The notes under the pieces are model-generated. The model searched no databases. It was not told where the DNA came from and saw only the letters and a list, made by a program, of their open reading frames with translations. Position numbers and translations under genes: made by a program. A DNA stretch of 64,000 bases from Armatimonadota bacterium. GTDB lineage: Bacteria > Armatimonadota > Fimbriimonadia > Fimbriimonadales > Fimbriimonadaceae. Numbering within the stretch: the stretch's first letter is position 1; the number at the start of each line of letters is the position of its first letter. Below are positions 13,851 through 26,920 of this stretch, piece after piece. The stretch covers positions 339,864 to 403,863 of the forward strand of contig JACRPN010000005.1 of assembly GCA_016223145.1 (NCBI GenBank), in the 5' to 3' direction.

Positions 13851-15569
13851 ATGAGCCCGCTCATTGCCCTCGCCATGCTTTCGTCGCAAACCCCCCAGGC
13901 CAGCCCGGATCCCTACGCCAACGAGACCCCCGCCCAGCGGGATGTGCGCATGAAGTGGTTCCGCGAGGCGCGCTTCGGCATGTTCATCCACTGGGGCGTT
14001 TACTCGGTGCCCGCAGGGGTTTACGATGGCAAACCGATCGGCGGCATCGGCGAGTGGATCATGCATCAAGGCAGGATCCCGGTGGATCGCTACCGCGCCT
14101 ACGCCAAGGAGTTCAACCCGGTCAAGTACGACGCCGACAGATGGGTGCGGATCGCCAAGAACGCCGGCATGAAGTACATCGTGATCACGAGCAAGCACCA
14201 CGACGGCTTCGCGATGTTCGACTCCAAGGCCTCAGACTGGAACATCGTGAAGGCCACGCCGTTCGGGCGCGACCCGCTTGCCGAACTCGCCAAGGCCTGC
14301 CAGAAGCATGGCCTCCGGCTTGGCTTCTACTACAGCCAGGCTCAGGACTGGAACAACGGCGGCTCTGCGGCGGGCGGGCATTGGGACCCGAAGCAAGACC
14401 GCAACATGACCGAGTACATCCAGAACGTCGCCGTGCCGCAGGTGAAGGAGATCCTCACCAAGTACGGCAAGATCTCGGTGCTCTGGTGGGACACCCCTTA
14501 CGAGATGACCAAAGAGCGCGCCGACATCCTCCTTCCCCTCTTCAAGCTCCAGCCCGGGATCATCCACAACAACCGCCTCGGAGGCGGCTATCGCGGCGAC
14601 ACCGAGACTCCCGAGCAGTTCGTCCCGGCGACCGGTTACCCCGGGCGCGACTGGGAAACCTGCATGACCATGAACGACACCTGGGGCTACAAGAGCACCG
14701 ACCACAACTGGAAGTCGAGCAAGGACCTGATCCGGATGCTCGTGGACATCGCCAGCGAGGGCGGCAACTTCCTGCTGAACGTCGGGCCGACTTCGCTGGG
14801 CGAGATCCCGCCTCCCTCGGTTGAACGCCTGGCCGCGGTCGGCGCATGGATGAAGAAGAACGGCTCTGCAATCTACGCGACGTCGGCGAGCCCGTTCAAG
14901 AAGCTCCCCTGGGGCCGCTGCACGAAGGTGCTCGGCAAGGACGGCGCGGCGCTTTACCTGCACGTTTTCGATTGGCCCACGAACGGCAAGCTGCTGGTGC
15001 CCGGCCTGAGGAGCAAGGTGGGTTCTGCCTGGCTTTTGGATGGCGAGAAGAAGCTCGCGGCCCGGAACACGCCCGAGGGGGTCGAGATCGCGGTGCCTCT
15101 CCGGGCGCCCGACGCGGTTTCGACCACGGTCAGGCTCATGGTGAAGGGCGAGATCATGATCGAACAGCCGGAGTCAACCTTGAAGCTCGGGGCGTCGCTC
15201 GCTCTGACGCCCGATGAGGCGACGCTGCACGGGGAGCTTCAGTCCGAAGAGCGTGGTGGCAAGCCCAACCTTGGCTTCTGGACCGACCCGAAGGACTACG
15301 CCGAGTGGACGTTCACCGCGGACAAGGCGGGATCGGTGAGCCTGACGACCGAAATCGCTGCGCCCGCTTCGGCGTCGTTCACGGTCACGCTGGGCGGCAA
15401 GACGGCGCGGCTCACCTCTCCTAACACCGGCTCCTACGACTCCTACCACGCCGTGGATCTGGGGACATTCTCGGTGGTGGCGGGGAAGAACACTCTCGTG
15501 GTCCGCGCGGTCGCGGAGGGCTGGAAGCCGATGAACCTTCGGGCGATCCAGATGAAGGCTGTGCCGTAG
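13851..15569 (+). CDS. Alpha-L-fucosidase, GH29
   Basis: This 572-residue enzyme is a retaining exo-alpha-L-fucosidase. The catalytic TIM barrel covers about residues 25-345, with WFREARFGMFIHWGVYSVPAG, ITSKHHDGFAMFDS (substrate-binding His pair) and the nucleophile D214 in VLWWDTPYE. GGNFLLNVGP near residue 305 closes the barrel. A C-terminal beta-sandwich (about 350-435) and an added carbohydrate-binding-like domain (about 445-572) follow. The N-terminal signal peptide is short (about 1-18). TAGCGT lies exactly 6 nt before ATG 13851, with no Shine-Dalgarno, so the mRNA may be leaderless. It is divergent from the esterase/GH95 pair. Confidence 0.94.
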   Translation: MSPLIALAMLSSQTPQASPDPYANETPAQRDVRMKWFREARFGMFIHWGVYSVPAGVYDGKPIGGIGEWIMHQGRIPVDRYRAYAKEFNPVKYDADRWVRIAKNAGMKYIVITSKHHDGFAMFDSKASDWNIVKATPFGRDPLAELAKACQKHGLRLGFYYSQAQDWNNGGSAAGGHWDPKQDRNMTEYIQNVAVPQVKEILTKYGKISVLWWDTPYEMTKERADILLPLFKLQPGIIHNNRLGGGYRGDTETPEQFVPATGYPGRDWETCMTMNDTWGYKSTDHNWKSSKDLIRMLVDIASEGGNFLLNVGPTSLGEIPPPSVERLAAVGAWMKKNGSAIYATSASPFKKLPWGRCTKVLGKDGAALYLHVFDWPTNGKLLVPGLRSKVGSAWLLDGEKKLAARNTPEGVEIAVPLRAPDAVSTTVRLMVKGEIMIEQPESTLKLGASLALTPDEATLHGELQSEERGGKPNLGFWTDPKDYAEWTFTADKAGSVSLTTEIAAPASASFTVTLGGKTARLTSPNTGSYDSYHAVDLGTFSVVAGKNTLVVRAVAEGWKPMNLRAIQMKAVP

Positions 15570-15709
15570 GCTTGCGCTGCTGTCGAAACCCAACCCTTCA
15601 GAGCGCAAGCACGATTGCCGGATTTCAGGGCAGTGATCTACCCCAGGGGCAACTGATGAATGCACCTTTTGGGGCGGCCCGTTCCTTCCGGAGTAAGCAC
15701 CAAACGGCA

Positions 15710-17092
15710 CTAGTCCTGGGACTGAAGTCCGCCGGCCGCGCTTCTTAGCTCCTCCAAACGGCGGCGCATGCGAGTCAGCACGCCCGCTTGTTTCGGATCG
15801 ATCGCGAGGTTGGTCAGCTCTTTTGGGTCCGTCTTTAGGTCGTGCAGGAACTCGTACGGCGGCTTCTGCTCGAAGTAGCGCGCGTACACATATCGCTCGC
15901 CTCGCACGCCTTCCCACTTCGGGATGTAAGGATTCACGAAGAGGTGCTCGCAGAAAAAGTCGCGCCGCCATCTTGGTCTCTCCCCTCGGACTAGCGGCGC
16001 GAGGCTCCTGCCCTGGCATTCTTTGGGGACCTTTTGGCCGGCCAGTTCCAGCAGAGTGGGCGCGACGTCGATGTTCAGGGCCAACTGCTCCGCCGACTTG
16101 CCCCGTCGGCTGGCGGGCATGCGCGGGTCGACGATGAGAAGGGGGACCCGCAGAGACTCCTCGTAATGAACCCATTTGCCGGAGAAGCCGCGCTCGCCCA
16201 GAAGATAGCCATTGTCAGACATAAACACGATGATCGTGTTGTCTGCCAAGTGGAGTCGCTCCAACTCGTCCGTGAGTCTGCCGATCTCGTGGTCCACGCC
16301 AGAAATCATGCGGTAGTACGCGCGCACGTTCTTGACGTACTTATTCGGAGTGTCGAACTGCCAGTACCAGCGGATGCGGTTCATGCTCTTTCGGAGGAAC
16401 TCGGGCTCAGCCTGGAACTGCTTCTCCTCTGCCGGTGTCGGCGTCGGGATAGCCGCGTCGTCGTACAGACCGTCCACGGTCTTGGGCCAAGGATAAAGGT
16501 TCTCCAGGCTGCCGTCCTCGGCGTGGGGGCTGTTGAAGCTGACGGACAGGCAGAACGGTTGCTGGGCCGGCTGCTTTTGCAGGAACTCGATGGCGCGATC
16601 GGTCGCGATCTGGTCAATATGCCGGATCTCGCCGGACGGCAATTCGCGCAGGAAGGGGTAGCCGATGGGCGACAGCAGATCGAACATCTTGGCCCCTTGC
16701 CCTTTCTCCACCGCGATCCCGAACTTGCCGATCAGCCCCGTGCGGTAGCCCACCCCACGCATCAACGAGGGGTAGCTGGTCTCGCAGAGCTGGGCGCCGA
16801 GGGGATGTGTGCCGAAGGTGTACCCGTGCCTACGCTCGAAGCAGCCAGTGAGGATCGAGGCCCGACTGGCGGCGCAGATCGGCGTGGTCACGAAGCTGTT
16901 TGGAAAGCGGACGCCCTGCGTCGCGAGGCGATCGAGGTTGGGGGTTTTGAGGAACGGATGCCCCAGGTAGCCCGCCGCGTCGTACCGCTGATCGTCGGTC
17001 AGGAGGATCAGGAAGTTCAGCGGCTTCGCTGATGGCCTCATGGGCGCAGATGAAATCCCCAGGGCATAGAGCGCCAGCAAGGCAAGGTGCAT
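15710..17092 (-). CDS. Exported sulfatase (formylglycine-dependent, C-x-A-x-R type)
   Basis: The 460-residue product belongs to the alkaline phosphatase superfamily and hydrolyses sulfate esters. A signal peptide covers about residues 1-19. Metal-binding DD lies at residues 33-34 (LLTDDQRYD). The modified residue is C73 in TPICAASRASILTG, i.e. C-A-A-S-R and not the usual C-x-P-x-R; anSME enzymes accept C-x-A/P-x-R. IIVFMSDNGYLLGERGFSGKWVHYEESLRVPLL is the C-terminal metal and substrate block. ATG 17092 was chosen over TTG 17098 because GGAG sits 8 nt upstream. It is the last gene of the putative island, on the far side from tRNA-Val. Confidence 0.92.
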   Translation of the reverse strand: MHLALLALYALGISSAPMRPSAKPLNFLILLTDDQRYDAAGYLGHPFLKTPNLDRLATQGVRFPNSFVTTPICAASRASILTGCFERRHGYTFGTHPLGAQLCETSYPSLMRGVGYRTGLIGKFGIAVEKGQGAKMFDLLSPIGYPFLRELPSGEIRHIDQIATDRAIEFLQKQPAQQPFCLSVSFNSPHAEDGSLENLYPWPKTVDGLYDDAAIPTPTPAEEKQFQAEPEFLRKSMNRIRWYWQFDTPNKYVKNVRAYYRMISGVDHEIGRLTDELERLHLADNTIIVFMSDNGYLLGERGFSGKWVHYEESLRVPLLIVDPRMPASRRGKSAEQLALNIDVAPTLLELAGQKVPKECQGRSLAPLVRGERPRWRRDFFCEHLFVNPYIPKWEGVRGERYVYARYFEQKPPYEFLHDLKTDPKELTNLAIDPKQAGVLTRMRRRLEELRSAAGGLQSQD

Positions 17093-17519
17093 TTCCAATT
17101 CTCCAAGTCCTAAGGGACGTCAGCATTTTGGCAGACGCACCGGAGAGACAAAGAGCCTCTGCGATGCCCTTCTGCGTTCTCTCAGGCACCACTCCGTCGG
17201 CCCATCTGAGGCTCCATAGGTGATACGGGTTCCTAAGCTGGTTCCAAAACGAGATGACCCGATATGACCCAAATTGACCCGATTCAAGAACCCTAACCGG
17301 GCTTCTTGAGCCCGCCAAGATTGCCATGACACTGAAGGGGTCACTGGTTCAAATCCAGTGCCACCCACCATCCTGCTGAACTTGAATGACGATCGGGTTC
17401 CCATGCGGTTCGTCAGCTCCATAAGGTGATCCTTGCCACCGCAGCTGCCTTGTAGGGGTCGGAGTGTTGCCGACGATTCCGGAATCGCGTAGCGAGGCTT
17501 CGCGGCCGTGCTGCCATGA
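17093..17519. other. Intergenic region carrying the tRNA-Val 3'-half copy
   Basis: The region holds GACCC-rich short repeats (GATGACCCGATATGACCCAAATTGACCCG, about 17252-17284), a GGGCTTCTTGAGCCC hairpin (about 17300-17313) and the tRNA relic. No gene is supported. Confidence 0.5.
17326..17370 (+). pseudogene. tRNA-Val 3'-half relic (att-like direct repeat)
   Basis: It matches 4372-4416 (anticodon loop to CCA end of tRNA-Val) at 42 of 45 positions. The 5' half is absent, so it cannot be a tRNA. Weaker similarity to the tRNA flank continues for about 30 bp downstream. This is the arrangement expected at the right end of an element that integrated in the 3' half of tRNA-Val, although no integrase gene lies in between. 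Confidence 0.85.
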
Positions 17520-18962
17520 CTATGGTTTGCGGCCCGGACAGGCGAGAACTCGGCGTCGAATGCCGTCCAGCATCGTGCGAAAGATGACCTGGTGCAGCGG
17601 GTACACAAGATACCAGTACGCGAGACCGGCGACCCCCACGGGATCGAAAATGGCCGTCAGTCGGATGGTGCAGCCCGAGTCGCTCTCTTGCACTTCAAAC
17701 TGCAACCAAGCTCTCCCTGGCAGCTTCATCTCGGCGGCAAGAAGGAGCAGCCTGTCCGGCTCGATTCGTTCCACGCGCCACCAGTCCAGGAAGTCCCCGA
17801 CCACCAGTTGGTCGGGATGTCTGCGCCCTCTGCGCTTGCCCACGCCCCCAAGGACAAGGTCGATCGCTGCCCGAAGGTTCCAAAGCCAGTCGAAACCATA
17901 CCAGCCCCGGGCACCCCCTATCTCACGGATGGGGCGAAAAGCCGCTTGGGCTGAGCACTCCACGTGAACGCTTCGAGAGTCCACGAGACGGTTGCCATAT
18001 CGGCGAATTGCGTTGGTAGGTCGGGTTCCGGACGAGCCGAACGAATCGGACCAGCGCGACTCGGCAAACTCCCTGTCCTCGTTTCGCATTGCCAGCGCTA
18101 CCGCCTCAGTGAATCTGTGAGGCCGCACCGAGAAATCAGCCAATGCCTCCGTTCGACGAACGACAGAGGCGTATCGAATACTCTCGATAAGCATTCGACC
18201 CACGCGCGCATAGATCGGTGTGACGAGCCCGAGCCAAAGGCTCGACAGGTGAGGGGTCAAAACGGGGACTGGGATGATCCAGCGTCGCAAACCCCGCTGG
18301 CGCGCGTACTCCAACATCATCTCTTGATAGGTGACCACTTCAGGGCCCCCGATCTCGTAGACCCGGCTTTCAGATGCGTTCAGAGACAGCGCTTCAACCA
18401 AATAGTCCAGAACATCCTCGATCCCTATCGGCTGTGCCGGCATCTGCACCCAGCGCGGGGCGACCATTGCGGGAAGCCGTTCGACGAGCGCTCGGATGAG
18501 TTCGAAGCTGAGACTTCCCGATCCGATGATCACCGAGGCGCGAAACTCAATGACGGGCACGCCGGTCGAACGTAGGAGTTCACCAACTTCAAGCCGACTT
18601 CGGAAGTGACTGGAAAGCTCCCCTTCATCGTTGCTCAGCCCTCCCAGGTAGACGATTTTCCGAACGCCTGCATGCGCGGCCGCTTCGGCGAAGTTCGACG
18701 CGCATCGGCGGTCTCGCTCTTCGAAGTCGGGTCCAACCGCCATCGAATGAATCAGATAGTAGGCCGTTTCGACGCCCGCCATGGCTGCCTCTAGGGACTC
18801 CAAGTCGAGCGCATCGCCCTGAGCCACTTCGCTGCTCGACGCGTCGGGTAATGGCATCGATCTGGGCCCTCGAACGAGGCACCGGACCTTGTGGCCGCTC
18901 TTGGCAAGTCTCGCAAGGAGCCTTCCACCCACGTAACCTGAAGCTCCTGTCAACAGAATCAT
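17520..18962 (-). CDS. NAD(P)-binding SDR/epimerase-like protein with C-terminal DUF2867
   Basis: This 480-residue protein has an extended-SDR Rossmann domain: GASGYVGG at residues 5-12 and YLIHSM near residue 73. A C-terminal DUF2867 domain (about 330-480; GARGWYGFDWLWNLR, VVGDFLDWWRVERIEPDRLLLLAAEMKLPGRAWLQFEV) is an SRPBCC-like ligand-binding fold. The substrate is unknown. The start is fixed by an ATGA overlap with the stop of the MerR/B12 regulator upstream, so the two are co-transcribed and translationally coupled. SDR-DUF2867 genes are frequent neighbours of CarH/LitR light regulators, which suggests a light- or stress-induced role in lipid or isoprenoid modification; this is inference. 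Confidence 0.85.
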   Translation of the reverse strand: MILLTGASGYVGGRLLARLAKSGHKVRCLVRGPRSMPLPDASSSEVAQGDALDLESLEAAMAGVETAYYLIHSMAVGPDFEERDRRCASNFAEAAAHAGVRKIVYLGGLSNDEGELSSHFRSRLEVGELLRSTGVPVIEFRASVIIGSGSLSFELIRALVERLPAMVAPRWVQMPAQPIGIEDVLDYLVEALSLNASESRVYEIGGPEVVTYQEMMLEYARQRGLRRWIIPVPVLTPHLSSLWLGLVTPIYARVGRMLIESIRYASVVRRTEALADFSVRPHRFTEAVALAMRNEDREFAESRWSDSFGSSGTRPTNAIRRYGNRLVDSRSVHVECSAQAAFRPIREIGGARGWYGFDWLWNLRAAIDLVLGGVGKRRGRRHPDQLVVGDFLDWWRVERIEPDRLLLLAAEMKLPGRAWLQFEVQESDSGCTIRLTAIFDPVGVAGLAYWYLVYPLHQVIFRTMLDGIRRRVLACPGRKP

Positions 18963-19888
18963 AAACTCGCCCGCACTGAAGAGAACGTTCGAGCATGGCT
19001 GAGCCACTCGCGCAGCGCGCCCATATCCGGGCAGATCTTTGCCCCAATCGCCTCTATTGTAGGGGCATAGCTTGTCGCTGCTTCGCCGCCAACAAGAAGG
19101 AACGTGTGCTTCTCCAGCAAAGAGCCAAGCCCGCGAATTTGATTCTCTGTATCAGGATCGCGCAGAGGATACACGAGGCTGATGGCTACCGCTGAGGCAC
19201 GTGTTCTCGCGGCCGCTTCTGCAATCTCCACTGCAGGCAAGTCGGGACCCAAATAGGTGACATCCCAGTCCATCCTGGCGGCCACGATAGCGGCCAGCAT
19301 GGCTCCGATTTCGTGGCGGTGACCCGTCGGTGTTGCGGCAATAAGCTTTGGCGCGTCTCGCGAAGGCAGGATCGAAAGCCTCATTCTCTCCAAATGGGTG
19401 CGGACCAGTGCGGAAGCCAAGTGCTCTTGAGCGATGCTGAGCTCGCTCGATGCCCACTTTTGTCCGACTTCCCGTAGCAGGGGCACCACGAAATCGTCCA
19501 GGAAGGCATCGACGCCAAGCAATAGACTTGCGCGCACGAGAACGGACTCAAAGGACGAAGCATCCAGGCTCTGCAGCGCCCGCATCGCAGAACTCAGAAA
19601 GCTTGGAGCCGCCTCTCCAGACCCGACTCCGTCGTGTCTCTCTCCAGGTGACGTCAAGCGGTCGAGGTCCTCTGCCGGCAAGACGGCGATCATGCTGATG
19701 CTGTGGCCCAACTCCACGGCACGATGCAGGAGTTTGAGCCGGCGGACGTCTGCTTCGTCGTACACACGCCTGTTGGTGCCTGTCCGCACGGGTGCGATCA
19801 CCCCGTAGCGGCGCTCCCACGCGCGTATGGTGTGGACCGTCAGGCCTGTCTCTTCAGCCACGGCGCGGATGGAGTAGTAGGAGTTCAT
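18959..19888 (-). CDS. MerR-family regulator with cobalamin-binding domain, CarH/LitR-like
   Basis: This 309-residue protein is a probable adenosylcobalamin-dependent photoreceptor repressor. The winged-helix HTH (about 5-70) contains SIRAVAEETGLTVHTIRAWERRYGVI. A four-helix B12-cap domain carries the diagnostic W-x9-E-H motif: W145, E155, H156. The Rossmann-type B12 domain has H192-E-I-G195, the lower-axial-ligand H-x-x-G. The acidic residue normally two positions before that His is His190 here. The start ATG 19888 matches the MerR domain and lies 6 nt after a CATAAT -10 with a perfect TTGACA -35, so the transcript is probably leaderless. The gene shares a divergent control region with DUF378 and fasciclin and would repress both directions in the dark. 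Confidence 0.92.
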   Translation of the reverse strand: MNSYYSIRAVAEETGLTVHTIRAWERRYGVIAPVRTGTNRRVYDEADVRRLKLLHRAVELGHSISMIAVLPAEDLDRLTSPGERHDGVGSGEAAPSFLSSAMRALQSLDASSFESVLVRASLLLGVDAFLDDFVVPLLREVGQKWASSELSIAQEHLASALVRTHLERMRLSILPSRDAPKLIAATPTGHRHEIGAMLAAIVAARMDWDVTYLGPDLPAVEIAEAAARTRASAVAISLVYPLRDPDTENQIRGLGSLLEKHTFLLVGGEAATSYAPTIEAIGAKICPDMGALREWLSHARTFSSVRASL

Positions 19889-19894
19889 AGTGAG

Positions 19895-20005
19895 ATTATG
19901 GGCCTCTTGTCTAAATATTGTCAAGCAAGTTTTGAGTCTGAGCAACACAAATGCGGAAAATATTGCGACAAATTCTTGACAAACAATAGACAATGGCTGT
20001 ACCAT
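19895..20005. promoter_or_regulatory. Divergent promoters with inverted operator pair for the CarH/LitR-like regulator
   Basis: Minus-strand promoter: TTGACA (19924-19919), 18 nt, CATAAT (19900-19895). Plus-strand promoter: TTGACA (19976-19981), 18 nt, TACCAT (20000-20005). Each -35 is embedded in a 19-nt site: TTGTCTAAATATTGTCAAG at 19907-19925, and CTTGACAAACAATAGACAA at 19975-19993. The second is the reverse complement of the first at 16 of 19 positions. Placement over both -35 boxes fits repression of both genes by one regulator. Confidence 0.7.
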
Positions 20006-20052
20006 GTTCTCGTCGCCCGGTCCCAGAGGGGTGCAGCGACAAGGACAAAAAC

Positions 20053-20271
20053 ATGAAAACGCTCGACATGCTCTCTCGCATCCTCGTCATCGTCGGCGGG
20101 CTCAACTGGGGCCTCGTCGGCATCGCCAAGTTCGACCTCGTCGCCACCCTGCTTGGTGCCGGCAGCGCGCTCGCCAACATCGTGTACGTGCTGGTCGGAA
20201 TCTCGGCCGTAGTGCAAGCGATCCGACTAACCGGCGCATCTTCTGCACCTGCATCCGCTCACGCCCACTGA
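20053..20271 (+). CDS. Small two-helix membrane protein, DUF378 family
   Basis: This 72-residue protein has two hydrophobic segments. The first holds [26 protein letters not shown] and the second [19 protein letters not shown], which is the DUF378 pattern (conserved GGxNWGLVG and YxLVGxxA). The function of the family is not known. ATG 20053 follows AAGGA at a normal distance. It is the first gene right of the CarH-like operator, with fasciclin next. Confidence 0.9.
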
Positions 20272-20309
20272 CGCCTCATCGTCAGACCCAATCCAAAGGA
20301 ACAACTAAC

Positions 20310-20807
20310 ATGAAGAAAATCATCCTCAGCATTGCCCTGGCCGGTATGGCCGTCGCCGCTTTGTCGTCTATGGCTTTGAAGCCCTCTCCCTCTGCAGACA
20401 TCGTGGATACGGCGGTCGCCTCCAAGCAATTCCCCACTCTTGTTGCCGCGGTGCAGGCCGCCGGACTTGTCGAGGCCCTCAAGGGCAGCGGACCGTTTAC
20501 CGTCTTCGCCCCGACCGAAGAGGCTTTCAAGAAGCTGCCCAAGGGCACACTGGAGTCGCTGCTCAAGCCTGAGAACAAGGCCAAGCTCGTCGCGATCCTG
20601 AAGTACCACGTGGTCCCGGGCAAGGTCATGGCCGCAGACGTTCTCAAGCTGAAGAACGGCACGGAAGTTCCGACCCTTCAGGGCCAGTCTGTCAAGGTCA
20701 AGAACAAGCACGGCGTTCAGGTCAACAACGCCAAAGTCGTCAAGACGGACATCGAGTGCAAGAACGGGGTCATCCACGTGATCGACACCGTCATCCTGCC
20801 GAAGTAA
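20310..20807 (+). CDS. Secreted fasciclin-domain protein
   Basis: This 165-residue protein has a signal peptide (about 1-23) and one complete FAS1 domain: [24 protein letters not shown] (H1 region), [27 protein letters not shown] and [12 protein letters not shown] (H2). FAS1 proteins mediate adhesion or bind small molecules outside the cell. AAAGGA precedes the ATG by 9 nt. It lies 38 bp after DUF378, so it probably belongs to the same B12/light-controlled transcript. A 22-bp palindrome 30 bp downstream may end that transcript. Confidence 0.93.
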
Positions 20808-20836
20808 CCGCTACGCAACACCCACCCCGACCCTGC

Positions 20837-20858
20837 AGCCCGGCCGATCGGCCGGGCT
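20837..20858 (+). terminator. 22-bp perfect palindrome after fasciclin, probable terminator hairpin
   Basis: The palindrome runs AGCCCGGCCGA then its exact complement and is followed by CTCCCCTCTTC without a T-run. A strong hairpin between two genes fits a terminator or mRNA 3'-end stabiliser, but it is not a canonical intrinsic terminator. Confidence 0.5.
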
Positions 20859-20877
20859 CCCCTCTTCAAGGAATGCC

Positions 20878-21384
20878 ATGAACACAATCATCACCCTCAT
20901 CGCAGCTGTGGCCCTTTCCCAGCTTCCGAAGGACGCAAAGACCCTGAATCTCGGTGACGGCTACTCGCGTGTCGAGACGGCGTCCTACCTTATCGAGGTT
21001 CCCGCCGGGTGGGAGGTCTCCGAAGAGACACCCTGGGGCCAGCGCAAGGCCCATCCCAAGGGAGCCGAAGGAGAGTTGGGAGTCATGACGGCTCCTCCCG
21101 GAGGCCAGAGTTGGGATCAGCTCTATCAGACTTCTCTCTACTTCATCCTTCGCGAATCGAAAGGCAAGCCCACGCCGTATCGGCTCGGCAAAACGGCGAG
21201 CGGATTGGAGACTGCCTCATTCGAAGTGCTCGATGACCAAGGATTCGCCGCCAGGCGTTTCGTCCTGATGCGCGGCAAGGACGGCCGACTGTTGGCGCTT
21301 TCCGTAAAAGTACCCACCCGAAATGCCGACAAGGAGTGGTCCAAGCACTTCGATCGATTGGCAGCCACCGCCAAATTCAAGTAG
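20878..21384 (+). CDS. Small secreted protein of unknown function
   Basis: This 168-residue protein has a short signal peptide (about 1-14, ITLIAAVALSQ). The remainder has a PsbP/Mog1-like feel: SYLIEVPAGWEVSEETPWGQRKAHP, LMRGKDGRLLALSVKVPT, EWSKHFDRLAATAKF. Such domains often bind membranes or lipids, but similarity by eye is weak, so I give no function. AAGGA lies 6 nt before the ATG. It is on the same strand between fasciclin and the NmrA-like gene. Confidence 0.75.
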   Translation: MNTIITLIAAVALSQLPKDAKTLNLGDGYSRVETASYLIEVPAGWEVSEETPWGQRKAHPKGAEGELGVMTAPPGGQSWDQLYQTSLYFILRESKGKPTPYRLGKTASGLETASFEVLDDQGFAARRFVLMRGKDGRLLALSVKVPTRNADKEWSKHFDRLAATAKFK

Positions 21385-21473
21385 CTGGCGGTTTCGCCTG
21401 CAAGCCAGATGACGTAACTGAAAGAGGAGCTTCAAGCAAGTCCAGAAGAGCCTCGTTGAAGGATCAATACCAA

Positions 21474-22433
21474 ATGAAAGAAAAAAAGATCATCGCAGTC
21501 GTTGGCGCCACCGGCGCCCAAGGCGGGGGGCTCGTTCGAGCGATCCTGTCCGACCCGAACGGAGGTTTCGCAGTTCGCGCCCTAACGCGGAACGTGGAAT
21601 CTGAGAAAGCCAAGGAACTCGCTGCTCTTGGCGCCCAGGTTGTTTCGGCCGATATGGAGGACGTTGAAAGCCTCAATCGGGCTTTCGAAGGCGCGTATGG
21701 CGTCTTCGGCGTCACGAACTACTGGGAGCACTTCTCGCCAGAGAAAGAACTCCGCCACGCGAGCAACATGGCCGAAGCCGCCAAAGCCACGGGCGTGCAG
21801 CACTTCGTATGGTCGACGCTTGAAGACACGAGACGTTGGGTTCCTCTTGACAGCGATCAGATGCCCACGCTCATGGGCAAGTACAAGGTGCCCCATTTCG
21901 ACGCCAAGGGAGAGTCGGACCAGTTCTTCCGCGATCTCGGAGTGCCCACGACCTTTCTTCTCACCTCGTTCTATTGGGACAACCTCATCCACTTCGGGAT
22001 GGGTCCGCAAGCCGGACCGGATGGTTCGTTGGCCATCGCGTTCCCCATGGACGACGCGAAGCTGCCCGGAATTGCATCCGAGGATATCGGCAAGTGCGCG
22101 TACGGAGTATTCAAGACTGGCTCTGCCATGATCGGCCAAACGGTTGGCATTTCGGGCGATCACCTTTCTGGTCGTGAGATGGCGGCCGCGATGTCCCAGG
22201 CTCTTGATAGGGAGATCCGCTTCTTCCCGATCACCCCCGACGCCTATCGCGCGCTCGGCTTTCCTGGCGCCGATGACCTGGGCAACATGTTTCAGTTCTA
22301 TCGCGACTTTACCGAGGACTTCCGCGCAATTCGTAGTGTGGAGAACACTCGCAAACTCAACTCGGAGCTGAAGTCCTTCCACGACTGGCTAAAGGCTCAT
22401 GGCTCCAAAATCCCCCTGCCGGTCAGCGCCTGA
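21474..22433 (+). CDS. NmrA-like NAD(P)-binding protein (atypical SDR, HSCARG-type)
   Basis: This 319-residue protein has an N-terminal dinucleotide motif VVGATGAQGGGL (residues 8-19) and the NmrA pattern VRALTRNVESEKAKELAALGAQVVSADMEDVESLNRAFEGAYGVFGVTNYW. It lacks the SDR Y-x3-K catalytic pair, as usual for NmrA/HSCARG sensors of NADPH/NADP redox state. ATG 21474 has GAAGGA upstream and begins at the Rossmann strand. It is the middle gene of the stress/light cluster. It may act as a redox sensor or quinone/flavin reductase; which one cannot be told from sequence. Confidence 0.88.
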   Translation: MKEKKIIAVVGATGAQGGGLVRAILSDPNGGFAVRALTRNVESEKAKELAALGAQVVSADMEDVESLNRAFEGAYGVFGVTNYWEHFSPEKELRHASNMAEAAKATGVQHFVWSTLEDTRRWVPLDSDQMPTLMGKYKVPHFDAKGESDQFFRDLGVPTTFLLTSFYWDNLIHFGMGPQAGPDGSLAIAFPMDDAKLPGIASEDIGKCAYGVFKTGSAMIGQTVGISGDHLSGREMAAAMSQALDREIRFFPITPDAYRALGFPGADDLGNMFQFYRDFTEDFRAIRSVENTRKLNSELKSFHDWLKAHGSKIPLPVSA

Positions 22434-22464
22434 GGCAAAAACATGGGAATCGTGAGTGGCCTGA

Positions 22465-22830
22465 TTGCGACCCTGGGCTCCGCCGGCCGGCGTGTTCGGG
22501 CCTGTATGGACCTTGCTGTACGTTCTAATGGCCGTCGCCGCTTGGCGGATCTATCGAAGCGGGTCGGCAAACACAAAATCCCTGCTCGGCCTCTTCCTCT
22601 TTCAACTTGGGCTCAACGCCCTTTGGAGTTGGACATTCTTCAAGTGGGAATCGGGCTTTGGCTCGATGATCACGATCGTTGCCCTTTGGGTTTCGATTCT
22701 TGCGACGATGATCGGCTTTTGGAGAGTGAACTTCGCTTCGGGAATGATGCTGATTCCATACCTCGCCTGGGTTTCTTTTGCTGCGGCACTGAATTGGGCG
22801 ATCTGGAACCTGAATCGAGGGGCGCTTTAG
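22465..22830 (+). CDS. tspO: TspO/MBR-family membrane protein, N-terminally truncated
   Basis: The 121 codons match TspO from helix I/II onward: WAPPAGVFGPVWTLLYVLMAVAAW, then FLFQLGLNALWSWTFFKWESG, and SFAAALNWAIWNLN at the end. TspO proteins are usually 150-160 residues with about 45 residues (TM1) before the PP-x-W/G-VFGPVWT motif. Here a TGA codon at 22462-22464 immediately precedes the only possible start (TTG 22465), and the NmrA gene ends 29 bp upstream, so TM1 is missing. It may be a degraded gene. TspO binds porphyrins and tetrapyrroles, which suits a B12/light regulon. No Shine-Dalgarno is evident. Confidence 0.75.
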   Translation: MRPWAPPAGVFGPVWTLLYVLMAVAAWRIYRSGSANTKSLLGLFLFQLGLNALWSWTFFKWESGFGSMITIVALWVSILATMIGFWRVNFASGMMLIPYLAWVSFAAALNWAIWNLNRGAL

Positions 22831-22948
22831 GAATGAAGGACAAACGCATAGGAAAGAAGTTCGAAACTGCTACGGCAGTAGCCGTTGTTTGGTTCGAGGG
22901 ACATTCGATATGTGCTGGCCGGCAAGAAGCGGTTGAGGGCCCGAGCCA

Positions 22949-23455
22949 ATGATCGGGCGAGTGGTCGTCGTCAACGACAAGATGCAGCAGGGCTATATCT
23001 ACGTCCTTCAAGAACCGGAGGGGCAGAACTTCGACCCTGACTTCCGGCCCGAACTGACCCCAAGAGAGATGCTCGAGCTTGGCGTCTTCGGCGGCAAATA
23101 CATGACCGACTGCCGAGAGGAGTTCCCGTCCGACTGGTTCGAGAACACCAAGCTCTGCCAGGAGCGTCACGATCCAACGCTTAACTGCTTCGGCGTCAAC
23201 GCTTCCAAGCCGCTCTCCTACTGGCAGGACAAGGGCTGGATATATCCGGAGGATCCACGCGGCTGGTTCCAGTGGTACTGCCGCTACTATATGGGCCGGC
23301 GCGGCGCCGATGACGCGCGACAGATCAAGCGCTGGCGGGCCATGAAACGGCACCTCGCCCAGCTCCAAAAACACTGCAGGCCCGGAGAGGCCAACTGCCG
23401 ACGACGCCAAAGACAGGCGCTCCTGCATTGGGCGTACGACACGAGGCGGGTCTGA
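22949..23455 (+). CDS. Conserved hypothetical protein, 168 aa
   Basis: This is a soluble Trp/Tyr/Arg-rich protein with many likely invariant residues: TPREMLELGVFGGKYMTDC, CFGVNASKPLSYW, PEDPRGWFQWYCRYYMGRR and RQRQALLHWAYDTRR. I believe the family is widespread in bacteria but of unknown function. The Cys and Trp pattern hints at a cofactor or nucleic-acid binding role; this is a guess. TGATG overlap with the next gene (SRPBCC) shows co-translation. It sits in the CarH-like regulon region. Confidence 0.85.
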   Translation: MIGRVVVVNDKMQQGYIYVLQEPEGQNFDPDFRPELTPREMLELGVFGGKYMTDCREEFPSDWFENTKLCQERHDPTLNCFGVNASKPLSYWQDKGWIYPEDPRGWFQWYCRYYMGRRGADDARQIKRWRAMKRHLAQLQKHCRPGEANCRRRQRQALLHWAYDTRRV

Positions 23456-23910
23456 TGCGAGTTCGGACCCTCTCCCGTGAAATCGTCGTCCCGGCGAGGC
23501 TGGAAGAGGTGTTCGAGTTCTTCTCAAACGCGGAGAACCTAGAGAAGCTGACCCCTGCCTCCCTCCGCTTTGAGATCCTCACTCCGATACCCATCGACAT
23601 GAAGCCGGGCGCGCTCATCGAGTACCGACTGCGGCTAATCGGCGTCCCTTTCCGATGGCTGACAGAAATCACCGCGTGGGAACCAGGAGTTCGATTCGTG
23701 GACGTCCAGCGTGCGGGACCATACTTGCTCTGGGAACACGAGCACTTCTTTGAGGCGATTGAGGGAGGCACGGTGATTCGTGATTGCCTTCGCTTCGCCG
23801 TTCCCGGTGGACTCATCGAGCCCTTGATAACGCATCTCTTTGTTCGGCGCCAGGTCGAACGCATCTTCGACTACCGCGAACGCCAGGTCTTGGCGATACT
23901 TGGCGGCTGA
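23455..23910 (+). CDS. SRPBCC-superfamily ligand-binding protein
   Basis: The 151-residue product has a START/Bet v1-like fold. It begins with LSREIVVPARLEEVFEFFSNAENLEKLTPASLRFEIL, has GALIEYRLRLIGVPFRWLTEITAWEPGVRFVDVQRAGPYLLWEHEHFFE in the middle, and ends with a long C-terminal helix. Such proteins bind hydrophobic ligands such as lipids or isoprenoids. ATG 23455 overlaps the previous stop (TGATG), and the start coincides with the first beta strand of the family. It is often found beside SDR-DUF2867 genes, as here. Confidence 0.9.
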   Translation: MRVRTLSREIVVPARLEEVFEFFSNAENLEKLTPASLRFEILTPIPIDMKPGALIEYRLRLIGVPFRWLTEITAWEPGVRFVDVQRAGPYLLWEHEHFFEAIEGGTVIRDCLRFAVPGGLIEPLITHLFVRRQVERIFDYRERQVLAILGG

Positions 23911-24042
23911 TGGGCCCATGACATAGCTCAAGTCGGTTCTTTGCTCAGGACGAACAAGATCCACGGCGGGCAGTTGTCCCAATCTCCTAAAGACGCCGGA
24001 CCTCACATACCGTAGTTTTCGCCTCGCAGAGCCGACAAAGGG

Positions 24043-24054
24043 TATGGTCCGAGC
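24043..24054 (+). promoter_or_regulatory. Leaderless-type promoter element of first sulfatase gene
   Basis: TATGGT (24043-24048) plus exactly 6 nt precedes ATG 24055. No Shine-Dalgarno is present. Confidence 0.45.
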
Positions 24055-25596
24055 ATGCTCAGCCTTCTTGCCGCTGCGGCAGTGTGCCAGGCCCCTCCCC
24101 GGCCCAACATCGTCATGATCTTCTCTGACGATCATGCGCGACGGGCGATCTCAGCCTACGGGTCCCGGCTGATCGCGACGCCGAATATCGACCGCATCGC
24201 CCAAGAAGGCGTCCGGTTCGACCGGCACTACACGGCCAACCCCATTTGCGCGCCAAGCCGTGCCACGCTCCTCACCGGCAAATACAGCCATTTGAACGGA
24301 ATAAAAGACAACGCCTCCACCTTCGACGGCTCGCAAGAGACATTTCCCAAGCTGCTGCAGGCGGCAGGCTACAAGACCGCGTTCATCGGCAAATGGCACC
24401 TTGCCTCCGATCCCACGGGCTTTGACCACTGGGAGGTTCTGCCCGGCCAAGGCGCCTACTACAACCCGGACTTCCTGACCCCAAGAGGCAGGGTCACCGA
24501 ACACGGCTATGTCACCGAGATCATTAGCAAGAAGGCGGTGGATTGGCTTGAAACCACCGACGGTAAGCCGTTTTGCCTCTTGGTCGGACACAAAGCGCCT
24601 CATAGGAACTGGGTCCCTGGTCCAAAGCAGATGGCCCTCTTCAACGACCGGACCTTTCCTGAACCGCCGACTCTTCGAACCGGATACGAGGGCCTGGCCA
24701 CCGCCGCCAAGTCCGTTAGGATGCGGCTCGACCAACACATTCGGCCTGCCGCGGACCTCTTGGTGGACACCGTCCCGCCGAGAATGGACGAGGCGCAGCG
24801 GGCGCTCTGGAAGCAGGCTATGGCCCAACAGGACGCCTCGTATAGGTCGCAGTTGGAGTCTTCTGGCGATCTCCTGGGCACCAACTACCAGCGCTACCTG
24901 AAGAACTACCTGCGGTGCGTAGCGGCCGTAGATGAGAGCGTTGGGGAGATCTATGGCTACCTAAACTCCCGAGGTCTGCTCAAGAACACCGTCCTCATTT
25001 ATGCCTCGGACCAGGGCTTCTTCCTCGGGGAGAATGGATGGTACGACAAGCGCTGGTTCTACGAGCCCTCAGCGGGTACGCCCCTGGTCGTTCGCCCCGC
25101 TGGAGGGGCGAGGCGGTCCAAAGCAATGACGGTGGGCTCCCTGACGAGCAACGTCGACCTTGCTCCGACCCTCCTGGATCTGGCGGGAGTCGCGGTTCCA
25201 AAGACGATGCAGGGCACTTCGCTCAAGGCGATGCTCAACGGCCGCGGCGCTCGATCGAAGGATTCGGCGGTTTATGGCCACTTTTATGAGAGCGACGACG
25301 GCGACCATAAGGCGCCGAAGTATGTCGCGGTTACGACGGCTCGCCACAAGCTGATCTATTACTACGAACAGGAAGAGTGGGAGCTATTCGATCTCTCCCA
25401 GGACCCGAACGAGACAAGGAACCTGTGGCTGGAAGGCGCCTCGGGGACGGTCAAAGCCGAAATGCGCCGAAAGCTCCTCTCCCGGATGCGCGAGCTGGAG
25501 GAAGAGGAAGGCCTCATTCAAAGCGTCGAACGGGCGGCCCGGATCACCCCTCGACCTTTCCTGGGGGGCGCACTTCGGCACCCTTCGTCTTCGTGA
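24055..25596 (+). CDS. Exported sulfatase, C-A-P-S-R type
   Basis: The product has 513 residues. Signal peptide: about 1-14. The metal-binding acidic pair is D25-D26 (IFSDDHARR). The formylglycine site is C65-A-P-S-R69 in NPICAPSRATLLTGKYSH. FIGKWHLASDP contains the conserved Lys/His block, and VLIYASDQGFFLGENGWYDKRWFYEPSAGTPLVV the second metal site. The GENGWYDKRW motif is common in choline-sulfatase/iduronate-2-sulfatase-like family members that act on glycans. It converges with the next gene and overlaps it by 53 bp at the 3' ends. Substrate not determined. Confidence 0.94.
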   Translation: MLSLLAAAAVCQAPPRPNIVMIFSDDHARRAISAYGSRLIATPNIDRIAQEGVRFDRHYTANPICAPSRATLLTGKYSHLNGIKDNASTFDGSQETFPKLLQAAGYKTAFIGKWHLASDPTGFDHWEVLPGQGAYYNPDFLTPRGRVTEHGYVTEIISKKAVDWLETTDGKPFCLLVGHKAPHRNWVPGPKQMALFNDRTFPEPPTLRTGYEGLATAAKSVRMRLDQHIRPAADLLVDTVPPRMDEAQRALWKQAMAQQDASYRSQLESSGDLLGTNYQRYLKNYLRCVAAVDESVGEIYGYLNSRGLLKNTVLIYASDQGFFLGENGWYDKRWFYEPSAGTPLVVRPAGGARRSKAMTVGSLTSNVDLAPTLLDLAGVAVPKTMQGTSLKAMLNGRGARSKDSAVYGHFYESDDGDHKAPKYVAVTTARHKLIYYYEQEEWELFDLSQDPNETRNLWLEGASGTVKAEMRRKLLSRMRELEEEEGLIQSVERAARITPRPFLGGALRHPSSS

Positions 25597-26920
25597 TCGC
25601 GTCTCCCAATTCTTTGCGCCCGATTTCGATCATCCGCAGCAGGCGCTGGACCACCTGCGGATGCTGATCGGCGACGTTTGTCGTCTCTGCCGGGTCCTTT
25701 TTTAGGTCAAACAGCGACAGTTCGATCTCCTGCGTCACCTCTCCGGCGGATTTGCCGTCGCGGCCTGCGGGCTCAGTCTGATGGCGATGCCTGTGTGGCA
25801 CATGCAGCTTCCAGTCTCCGCTGCGGACAGCCTGCAACTGGTCGGGCCAATAATAGTAGAACCACTTCCAAGGGGTCCTCGCGCCCGGTTCGCCGGAGAT
25901 AAGCGGCCGGATATCGTGCCCGTCGATCTTGGCCTCCGGCAACTTTGCCCCCGCAAGCGCGGCAATGGTGGGAAGCAAGTCCATGGTCGAGGCCACCTCG
26001 TCACACACGGCGCCGGCTGGGACCCTTCCCGGCCAGCGAAAGATCCCGGGTACGCGGAATCCGGCCTCAAACGTCGTGCCCTTGCCCTCTCGGAAGCCTC
26101 CCGACGAGCCGGCGTGATCGCCATAGGGACGCCAAGGGCCGTTGTCTGAGGAGAAAACGACGAGCGTGTCCTTGTCCAGGCCGGTCTGGCGAAGCGTCTT
26201 GAGGATCTCTCCAACCGACCAGTCGATCTCTTGGACCACGTCGCCATAGAGCCCGGCGCCGCTCTTTCCCAGGAAGCGCTCGCTCGCCGCGAGGGGCACG
26301 TGCGGCATGGAGTGCGGCAGATAAAGGAAGAAGGGGCGGTCTCGGTTGGCGCGGATGAACTCGGTGGCGATCCGCGTGTACTTTTGGGTGAGCTGGGCCG
26401 TATCGTCGAGCGTCTTCACCTCCTCGATCCGCTTGTCGTTTCGATAGAGCCACAGCGGAGGCCAGGCGTTTCGATTGGGCGGCCACATGTCGTGCGAATA
26501 GGGTAGGCCGTAGAACGTGTCAAAGCCTTGTCGGGTGGGAAGGAGGTTATTGACGCCGAGGTGCCACTTGCCCACGCACGCCGTGGCGTATCCGAGCGGC
26601 TTGAGGATGCTCGCAATGTTCGCTTCCCCGGGGTTCAGACCGGTCCTGGACTCCGGGCCGAGCACCTCCGGCACGCTGACACGCACGGGGTAGCAGCCCG
26701 TCATCAGCGCTGCCCGCGAAGGGCTGCACGCCGGTGAGGCGACATAGAAGCTGGTGAAGCGCGTCCCTTCCTTCGCCATCCGGTCGAGGTTGGGGGTCAT
26801 GTAGGCTCTGTTGCCGTAGCAGCTTAGGTCCCCGTAGCCCAAATCGTCGCAGTAGATGACCACGAAGTTGGGTGGCCGAGAGGCCACCGTCATGGCGAGT
26901 GCGGCAAGCCCAAGGATCAC
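25544..26920 (-). CDS. Exported arylsulfatase, C-S-P-S-R type
   Basis: The product has 458 residues and starts with GTG. Signal peptide: about 1-15. Metal pair D25-D26 in IYCDDLGYGDLSCYG; formylglycine site C65-S-P-S-R69. Downstream are CVGKWHLG, LPHSMPHVPLAAS, VVFSSDNGPW and a C-terminal WKLHVPHRHRHQTEP segment, typical of arylsulfatase A/N-acetylgalactosamine-6-sulfatase-like enzymes. TAGAAT lies exactly 6 nt before the GTG with no Shine-Dalgarno, indicating a leaderless mRNA. It is divergent from the next sulfatase (71 bp) and convergent and overlapping with the previous one. Confidence 0.94.
   Translation of the reverse strand: MILGLAALAMTVASRPPNFVVIYCDDLGYGDLSCYGNRAYMTPNLDRMAKEGTRFTSFYVASPACSPSRAALMTGCYPVRVSVPEVLGPESRTGLNPGEANIASILKPLGYATACVGKWHLGVNNLLPTRQGFDTFYGLPYSHDMWPPNRNAWPPLWLYRNDKRIEEVKTLDDTAQLTQKYTRIATEFIRANRDRPFFLYLPHSMPHVPLAASERFLGKSGAGLYGDVVQEIDWSVGEILKTLRQTGLDKDTLVVFSSDNGPWRPYGDHAGSSGGFREGKGTTFEAGFRVPGIFRWPGRVPAGAVCDEVASTMDLLPTIAALAGAKLPEAKIDGHDIRPLISGEPGARTPWKWFYYYWPDQLQAVRSGDWKLHVPHRHRHQTEPAGRDGKSAGEVTQEIELSLFDLKKDPAETTNVADQHPQVVQRLLRMIEIGRKELGDAITKTKGAEVRPPGKVEG

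Follow-up and report, generated by a model that had tools for sequence, protein, structure and literature searches.

The window analysed here, a stretch of 64,000 nucleotides from an Armatimonadota genome, contains a gene for a MerR-type, B12-binding regulator that is divergently arranged to a cluster including a fasciclin gene. The locus raises the question of whether this regulator controls transcription in both directions, and whether it does so as a light-sensitive, B12-dependent repressor. TtCarH serves as the standard model of light sensing by B12 and for optogenetic tools. The protein family, gene content, promoters, repeats and conservation described below are established at the level of sequence, and the locus is a real, conserved regulatory unit that is CarH-like in its predicted working.

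The regulator and its neighbouring genes

The best PDB sequence matches of the regulator were TtCarH chains (5c8d, E 8.5e-32). Its AlphaFold model had a pLDDT of 93.6 and the top Foldseek matches were all TtCarH. With TtCarH (5C8D/5C8E) and the CarH/LitR class I proteins, it shares the domain order, in which the MerR recognition sequence RxWERRY precedes the four-helix B12 and Rossmann B12 domains, as well as the Wx9EH motif, the axial His and the Arg-Asp dimer pair (R191 and D216). The initial annotation had pointed to W145-x9-E155-H156 and H192-x-x-G195, and these residues were found as stated. Wx9EH is the feature separating CarH from CarA (PMC9304148), and its Trp, the residue lost in CarA, is present as W145. 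Both the adenosyl pocket (Wx9EH) and the lower axial His are intact in the sequence, and HxxG-x41-SxV-x27-GG is represented by H192, G195, S237-x-V239 and G267-G268.

Two residues tied to the cobalamin chemistry of CarH differ. Ala146, directly after W145, occupies the position of TtCarH His132, the upper light-state His that is present in many but not all CarH (PMC9304148). Residues at this position were counted in 94 non-redundant relatives carrying the W, EH and H residues; these were sampled for similarity to the window protein and its Armatimonadota kin, so the counts, with His in seven and Arg as the commonest residue (35), are not frequencies across all CarH. His190 is located at the position of TtCarH E175, where the motif D/ExHx2G-x41-SxT/V-x22-27-GG has an acidic residue; the remainder of that motif is present. 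His190 had been called an unusual replacement of the acidic residue. The residue itself is real and infrequent, but the position is seldom acidic among the 94 relatives of this similarity-based sample (Gln 79, Glu 8, His 4, Phe 2, Asn 1), and Gln is also found in the nearest relative (81% identical). Because Gln predominates among relatives at this labile position, His190 was interpreted as a recent, local variant. It was rejected as a family hallmark, since repeated changes at the position were seen on a quick tree with weak support. Leu174 and Asp207 correspond to TtCarH Gly160 and Gly192 at the tetramer interface. These substitutions make a TtCarH-like tetramer doubtful. A dimeric form, as known for Cystobacter CarH (PMC9304148), is possible for the window regulator. 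Against the NCBIfam CarH equivalog NF052513, the regulator scored 139 bits with a cut-off of 400. With the two differing residues and no D/E at its motif position, the protein was classified as a variant and not as a textbook CarH.

Downstream of the regulator, the start of the SDR-DUF2867 gene overlaps the regulator stop (Table 1); this gene was present near the regulator in 13/94 relatives. The plus-strand genes from DUF378 to SRPBCC all run in the same direction, and we infer an operon of this extent, with the SRPBCC gene as its possible end. Among the 94 relatives, DUF378 was found near the regulator in 14, TspO in seven and SRPBCC in 16. Of the 87 non-redundant loci with sufficient sequence, 38 had fasciclin divergent from the regulator, and these spanned several phyla. 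Several relatives encode a counterpart of the first orphan protein near their regulator, and L044, L046, L075 and L080 have kin of the second orphan in the same cluster. Both orphan families recur beside CarH-like regulators and look like parts of a light-stress cluster.

Table 1. Features of the regulator locus and the matching folE2 site in a relative. Positions refer to the window unless another locus is named.
Feature	Position	Strand	Basis
NAD(P)-binding epimerase-like (SDR) + DUF2867	17520..18962	-	Pfam
CarH/LitR-like regulator (P0001), 309 aa	18959..19888	-	Pfam MerR HTH + B12-binding_2 + B12-binding
Regulator promoter, TTGACA-N18-CATAAT	19924..19895	-	Promoter scan
-10 CATAAT of regulator promoter	19895..19900	-	Promoter scan
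Predicted operator, regulator's own promoter	19908..19924	-	Tandem TnnACA: TTGACA (19924-19919 = -35) + TAGACA (19913-19908)
Predicted operator, divergent operon	19965..19992	+	TTGACA (19976-19981 = -35), then TAGACA (19987-19992)
Divergent-operon promoter, TTGACA-N18-TACCAT	19976..20005	+	Promoter scan
-10 TACCAT of divergent promoter	20000..20005	+	Promoter scan
DUF378 small membrane protein, first gene of divergent operon	20053..20271	+	Pfam
Fasciclin (FAS1) domain protein	20310..20807	+	Pfam E 5.9e-41
168-aa orphan protein	20878..21384	+	No Pfam or NCBIfam match
NmrA-like NAD(P)-binding protein	21474..22433	+	Pfam
TspO/MBR protein, listed start TTG	22465..22830	+	Pfam E 8.4e-36
Second 168-aa orphan protein	22949..23455	+	No Pfam match
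SRPBCC/polyketide-cyclase-like protein, start uncertain	23428..23910	+	Pfam, just below cut-off
folE2 operator of relative G134	L145 1501-1517 = G134:C62:29613-29629		17-mer match

Divergent promoters and operator repeats

Two divergent TTGACA promoters are located between the genes (19889-20052), and no promoters besides these were detected in a scan of 17400-24100. As originally proposed, a 19-nt site covers each -35 box and both spacers comprise 18 nt; TTGACA-N18 was confirmed on either strand. The regulator promoter leaves 6 nt between the end of its -10 and the start codon (19888-19900, - strand), so a leaderless regulator mRNA is predicted. Relatives showed the same tendency when scanned: of 38 candidate promoters, 13 had 6 nt between -10 and start codon, the most frequent distance, and 19 had 5-7 nt.

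The two 19-nt sites (19907-19925 and 19975-19993) had been described as mirror images, reverse complementary at 16/19 positions. The recount gave 15/19, a value reached by 3/300 shuffles of the intergenic region, so the symmetry of the 19-mers alone is only modestly unlikely. Within the genome (3.87 Mb), exact copies of the site pattern were found only at these two places. Each site consists of two TnnACA hexamers with an 11-bp spacing; the - strand site reads TTGACAATATTTAGACA and the + strand site TTGACAAACAATAGACA. A further, degenerate repeat was located 11 bp upstream of each -35 repeat, TCAAAA starting at 19935 on the - strand and GCGACA at 19965-19970 on the + strand. The mirror image was consequently abandoned as a simple 19-mer symmetry and retained as head-to-head arrays of 11-bp direct repeats. 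The published CarH repeat, nnnnTnnACAn, is arrayed three or four times in tandem, partly in degenerate form, and one copy contains the -35 (PMC9304148). Both predicted operators match this repeat, and their tandem 11-bp repeats overlap the -35. Operators of this type that contain the -35, in a divergent layout beside the regulated genes, are shared with TtCarH and class I; the window differs from TtCarH in having two full and one degenerate repeat per promoter. The combination of full and degenerate repeats, and of two operators on divergent promoters, is shared with the CarH of Cystobacter and Sorangium (PMC9304148).

The only two exact genome matches to TTGACAN5TAGACA were the two sites at the locus, and such sites were restricted to the regulator locus in most relatives too. 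The relaxed pattern TTGACAN5TnnACA had four exact matches, two of them at this locus. The other two, located within or next to coding sequence, look like chance occurrences and were rejected as targets. Upstream of a DinB/MST-like gene, a site with one mismatch (C14:143160) was discarded because relatives of that gene in G001 and G002 do not retain it. A perfect array of three repeats was absent from the genome; in the close relative L020, three full repeats are present, the middle of which contains the -35. The genome of this relative, G134, encodes two regulators of the family, L020 and L144. The latter, about 42-44% identical, has Glu before the axial His, and a TTGACAN5TAGACA site is located just upstream of it.

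The 11-bp spacing was conserved far beyond the window. In the sequence upstream of the regulator, 24 of 27 Armatimonadota loci had TnnACA pairs at a spacing of 11, 53 pairs in total, versus a mean of 0.3 and a maximum of 3 in dinucleotide shuffles. A spacing of 22 accounted for 14 pairs and each remaining spacing from 6 to 39 for 0-2. The 94 relatives, which span many phyla, comprised 134 pairs at 11 bp and 35 at 22 bp, with 0-7 at the remaining spacings from 6 to 29. A TnnACA pair was present in 72/92 loci having at least 100 bp upstream, and the Thermus carH region was detected as positive control. Three loci of one Armatimonadota genus (L041, L042 and L043) were excluded from these counts as they lack Wx9EH and the repeats. 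Their MerR-B12 proteins carry D-x-H, no TnnACA repeats were found upstream, and they possibly represent a different sensor branch. The protein and structure matches, the operator motif known from the literature and the cross-phylum footprint strongly support the initial proposal that a CarH/LitR-type regulator acts on the two divergent promoters.

Predicted mode of action and alternatives

The regulator most likely depends on AdoCbl to repress, in the dark, both its own gene and a photoprotection operon, with light relieving the repression. AdoCbl binding, dark repression, release in the light and a photoprotective role are parts that we infer from the comparison with characterised proteins. 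In the dark, the AdoCbl-bound regulator would occupy, as an oligomer, the 11-bp repeats containing each -35. It would thereby repress its own gene with SDR-DUF2867 and also the operon from DUF378 and fasciclin through TspO to SRPBCC. Light would break the Co-C bond, and the adenosyl group would leave the W145/E155/H156 pocket. The oligomer would then loosen, allowing transcription in both directions. With Ala146 at the position of His132, a water- or hydroxide-ligated cobalamin is expected in the light, as in the photocobilin SasPcob, and the light state is probably of this type and not bis-His. In favour of this reading, a gene for a PduO-type cobalamin adenosyltransferase is present in the genome.

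In the main rival reading, the repressor depends on AdoCbl but responds to B12 supply, or to redox state, rather than to light. Here, photolysis would not release DNA efficiently because His132 and the acidic residue are missing, as A146 and H190 indicate. The light state of TtCarH is bis-His via H132, and the H132A variant was largely tetrameric in the light (PMC10442372). However, disassembly was reported in an earlier study of full-length H132A, according to the account given in PMC10442372, and SasPcob, without bis-His ligation, is monomeric in the light with water or hydroxide on the cobalt (PMC10979010). Some relatives without H132 also adjoin photolyase or carotenoid genes, and sensing of B12 supply was considered unlikely. 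The regulator could alternatively be a CarA-like, B12-independent repressor that is released by a partner protein of the CarS or LOV type. CarA and class II LitR document drift from B12 sensing within the family (PMC9304148, PMC9758184), but the intact Wx9EH and the retained HxxG, SxV and GG elements make this reading very unlikely. The MerR-type DNA-binding domain and the 18-bp spacers would also fit a classical MerR activator, which acts from a dyad between -35 and -10 to realign promoters whose spacers are over-long. Since the sites are direct repeats over the -35 that reach upstream of it, and the commonest spacer among relatives is 17 bp, such an activator is highly improbable.

Putative light-stress genes and related systems

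Returning to light-relieved repression, the predicted targets in the window are fasciclin, DUF378 and TspO, whereas those of TtCarH are crtB and phr. Phytoene synthase and two photolyase families had no match in the genome, which is 97% complete, a result that speaks against this reading; the CarH proteins of Cystobacter and Sorangium control carotenoid genes. Among the 94 relatives, photolyase was encoded near the regulator in nine and phytoene synthase in seven, with the same regulator motifs. Photooxidative stress induces the fasciclin gene RSP_1409 and folE2 in Rhodobacter sphaeroides, and tspO in R. capsulatus (PMC7074977). An Azospirillum fasciclin protein is cited in PMC10949492 for a role in photooxidative stress and flocculation. 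The RpoE-ChrR regulons of Rhodobacter and Azospirillum have a fasciclin target in common with the window, and that of R. sphaeroides lists folE2 beside fasciclin. They differ in the mode of control, which is exerted by a sigma/anti-sigma pair responding to singlet oxygen and, in the window, by a predicted B12 repressor. Photocobilins share the CarH-like B12 domain, and SasPcob works without the bis-His light state; unlike the window regulator, they carry a bilin-binding globin domain and no MerR domain (PMC10979010).

In the relative G134, a 17-mer identical to the - strand operator of the window begins 98 bp upstream of folE2. An operator of this kind was absent before folE2 in the genome studied here and in 12 others. 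In the open-access literature searched, no prior description was found of a combination of fasciclin with LitR or a MerR/cobalamin regulator.

A wider reading is put forward tentatively. A large, multi-phylum branch of CarH-like photoreceptors with Gln or, as here, His for the acidic residue and without H132 might combine a light reaction that is not bis-His with control of photoprotection by fasciclin, DUF378 and TspO, for which carotenoids or photolyase would not be required. If many natural CarH-like proteins without H132 (87/94 in this similarity-based sample) and without the acidic partner keep the pocket and the operators, they provide natural tests of the need for these residues in light sensing. 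The recurrent link to the fasciclin operon suggests a testable light-stress role for DUF378 and bacterial fasciclin genes.

Fasciclin divergent from a MerR-B12 regulator was also observed in a distant phylum, on a Burkholderiales plasmid (L128 2415-3891, Eleftheria terrae NZ_CP106953.1). In the window, the cluster is flanked at 13851-17098 and 24055-26920 by sulfatase-type genes, of which the one at 15710-17098 was assigned by Pfam and two more by resemblance only, and by an alpha-L-fucosidase-like gene. These flanking genes suggest a degrader of sulfated polysaccharides.
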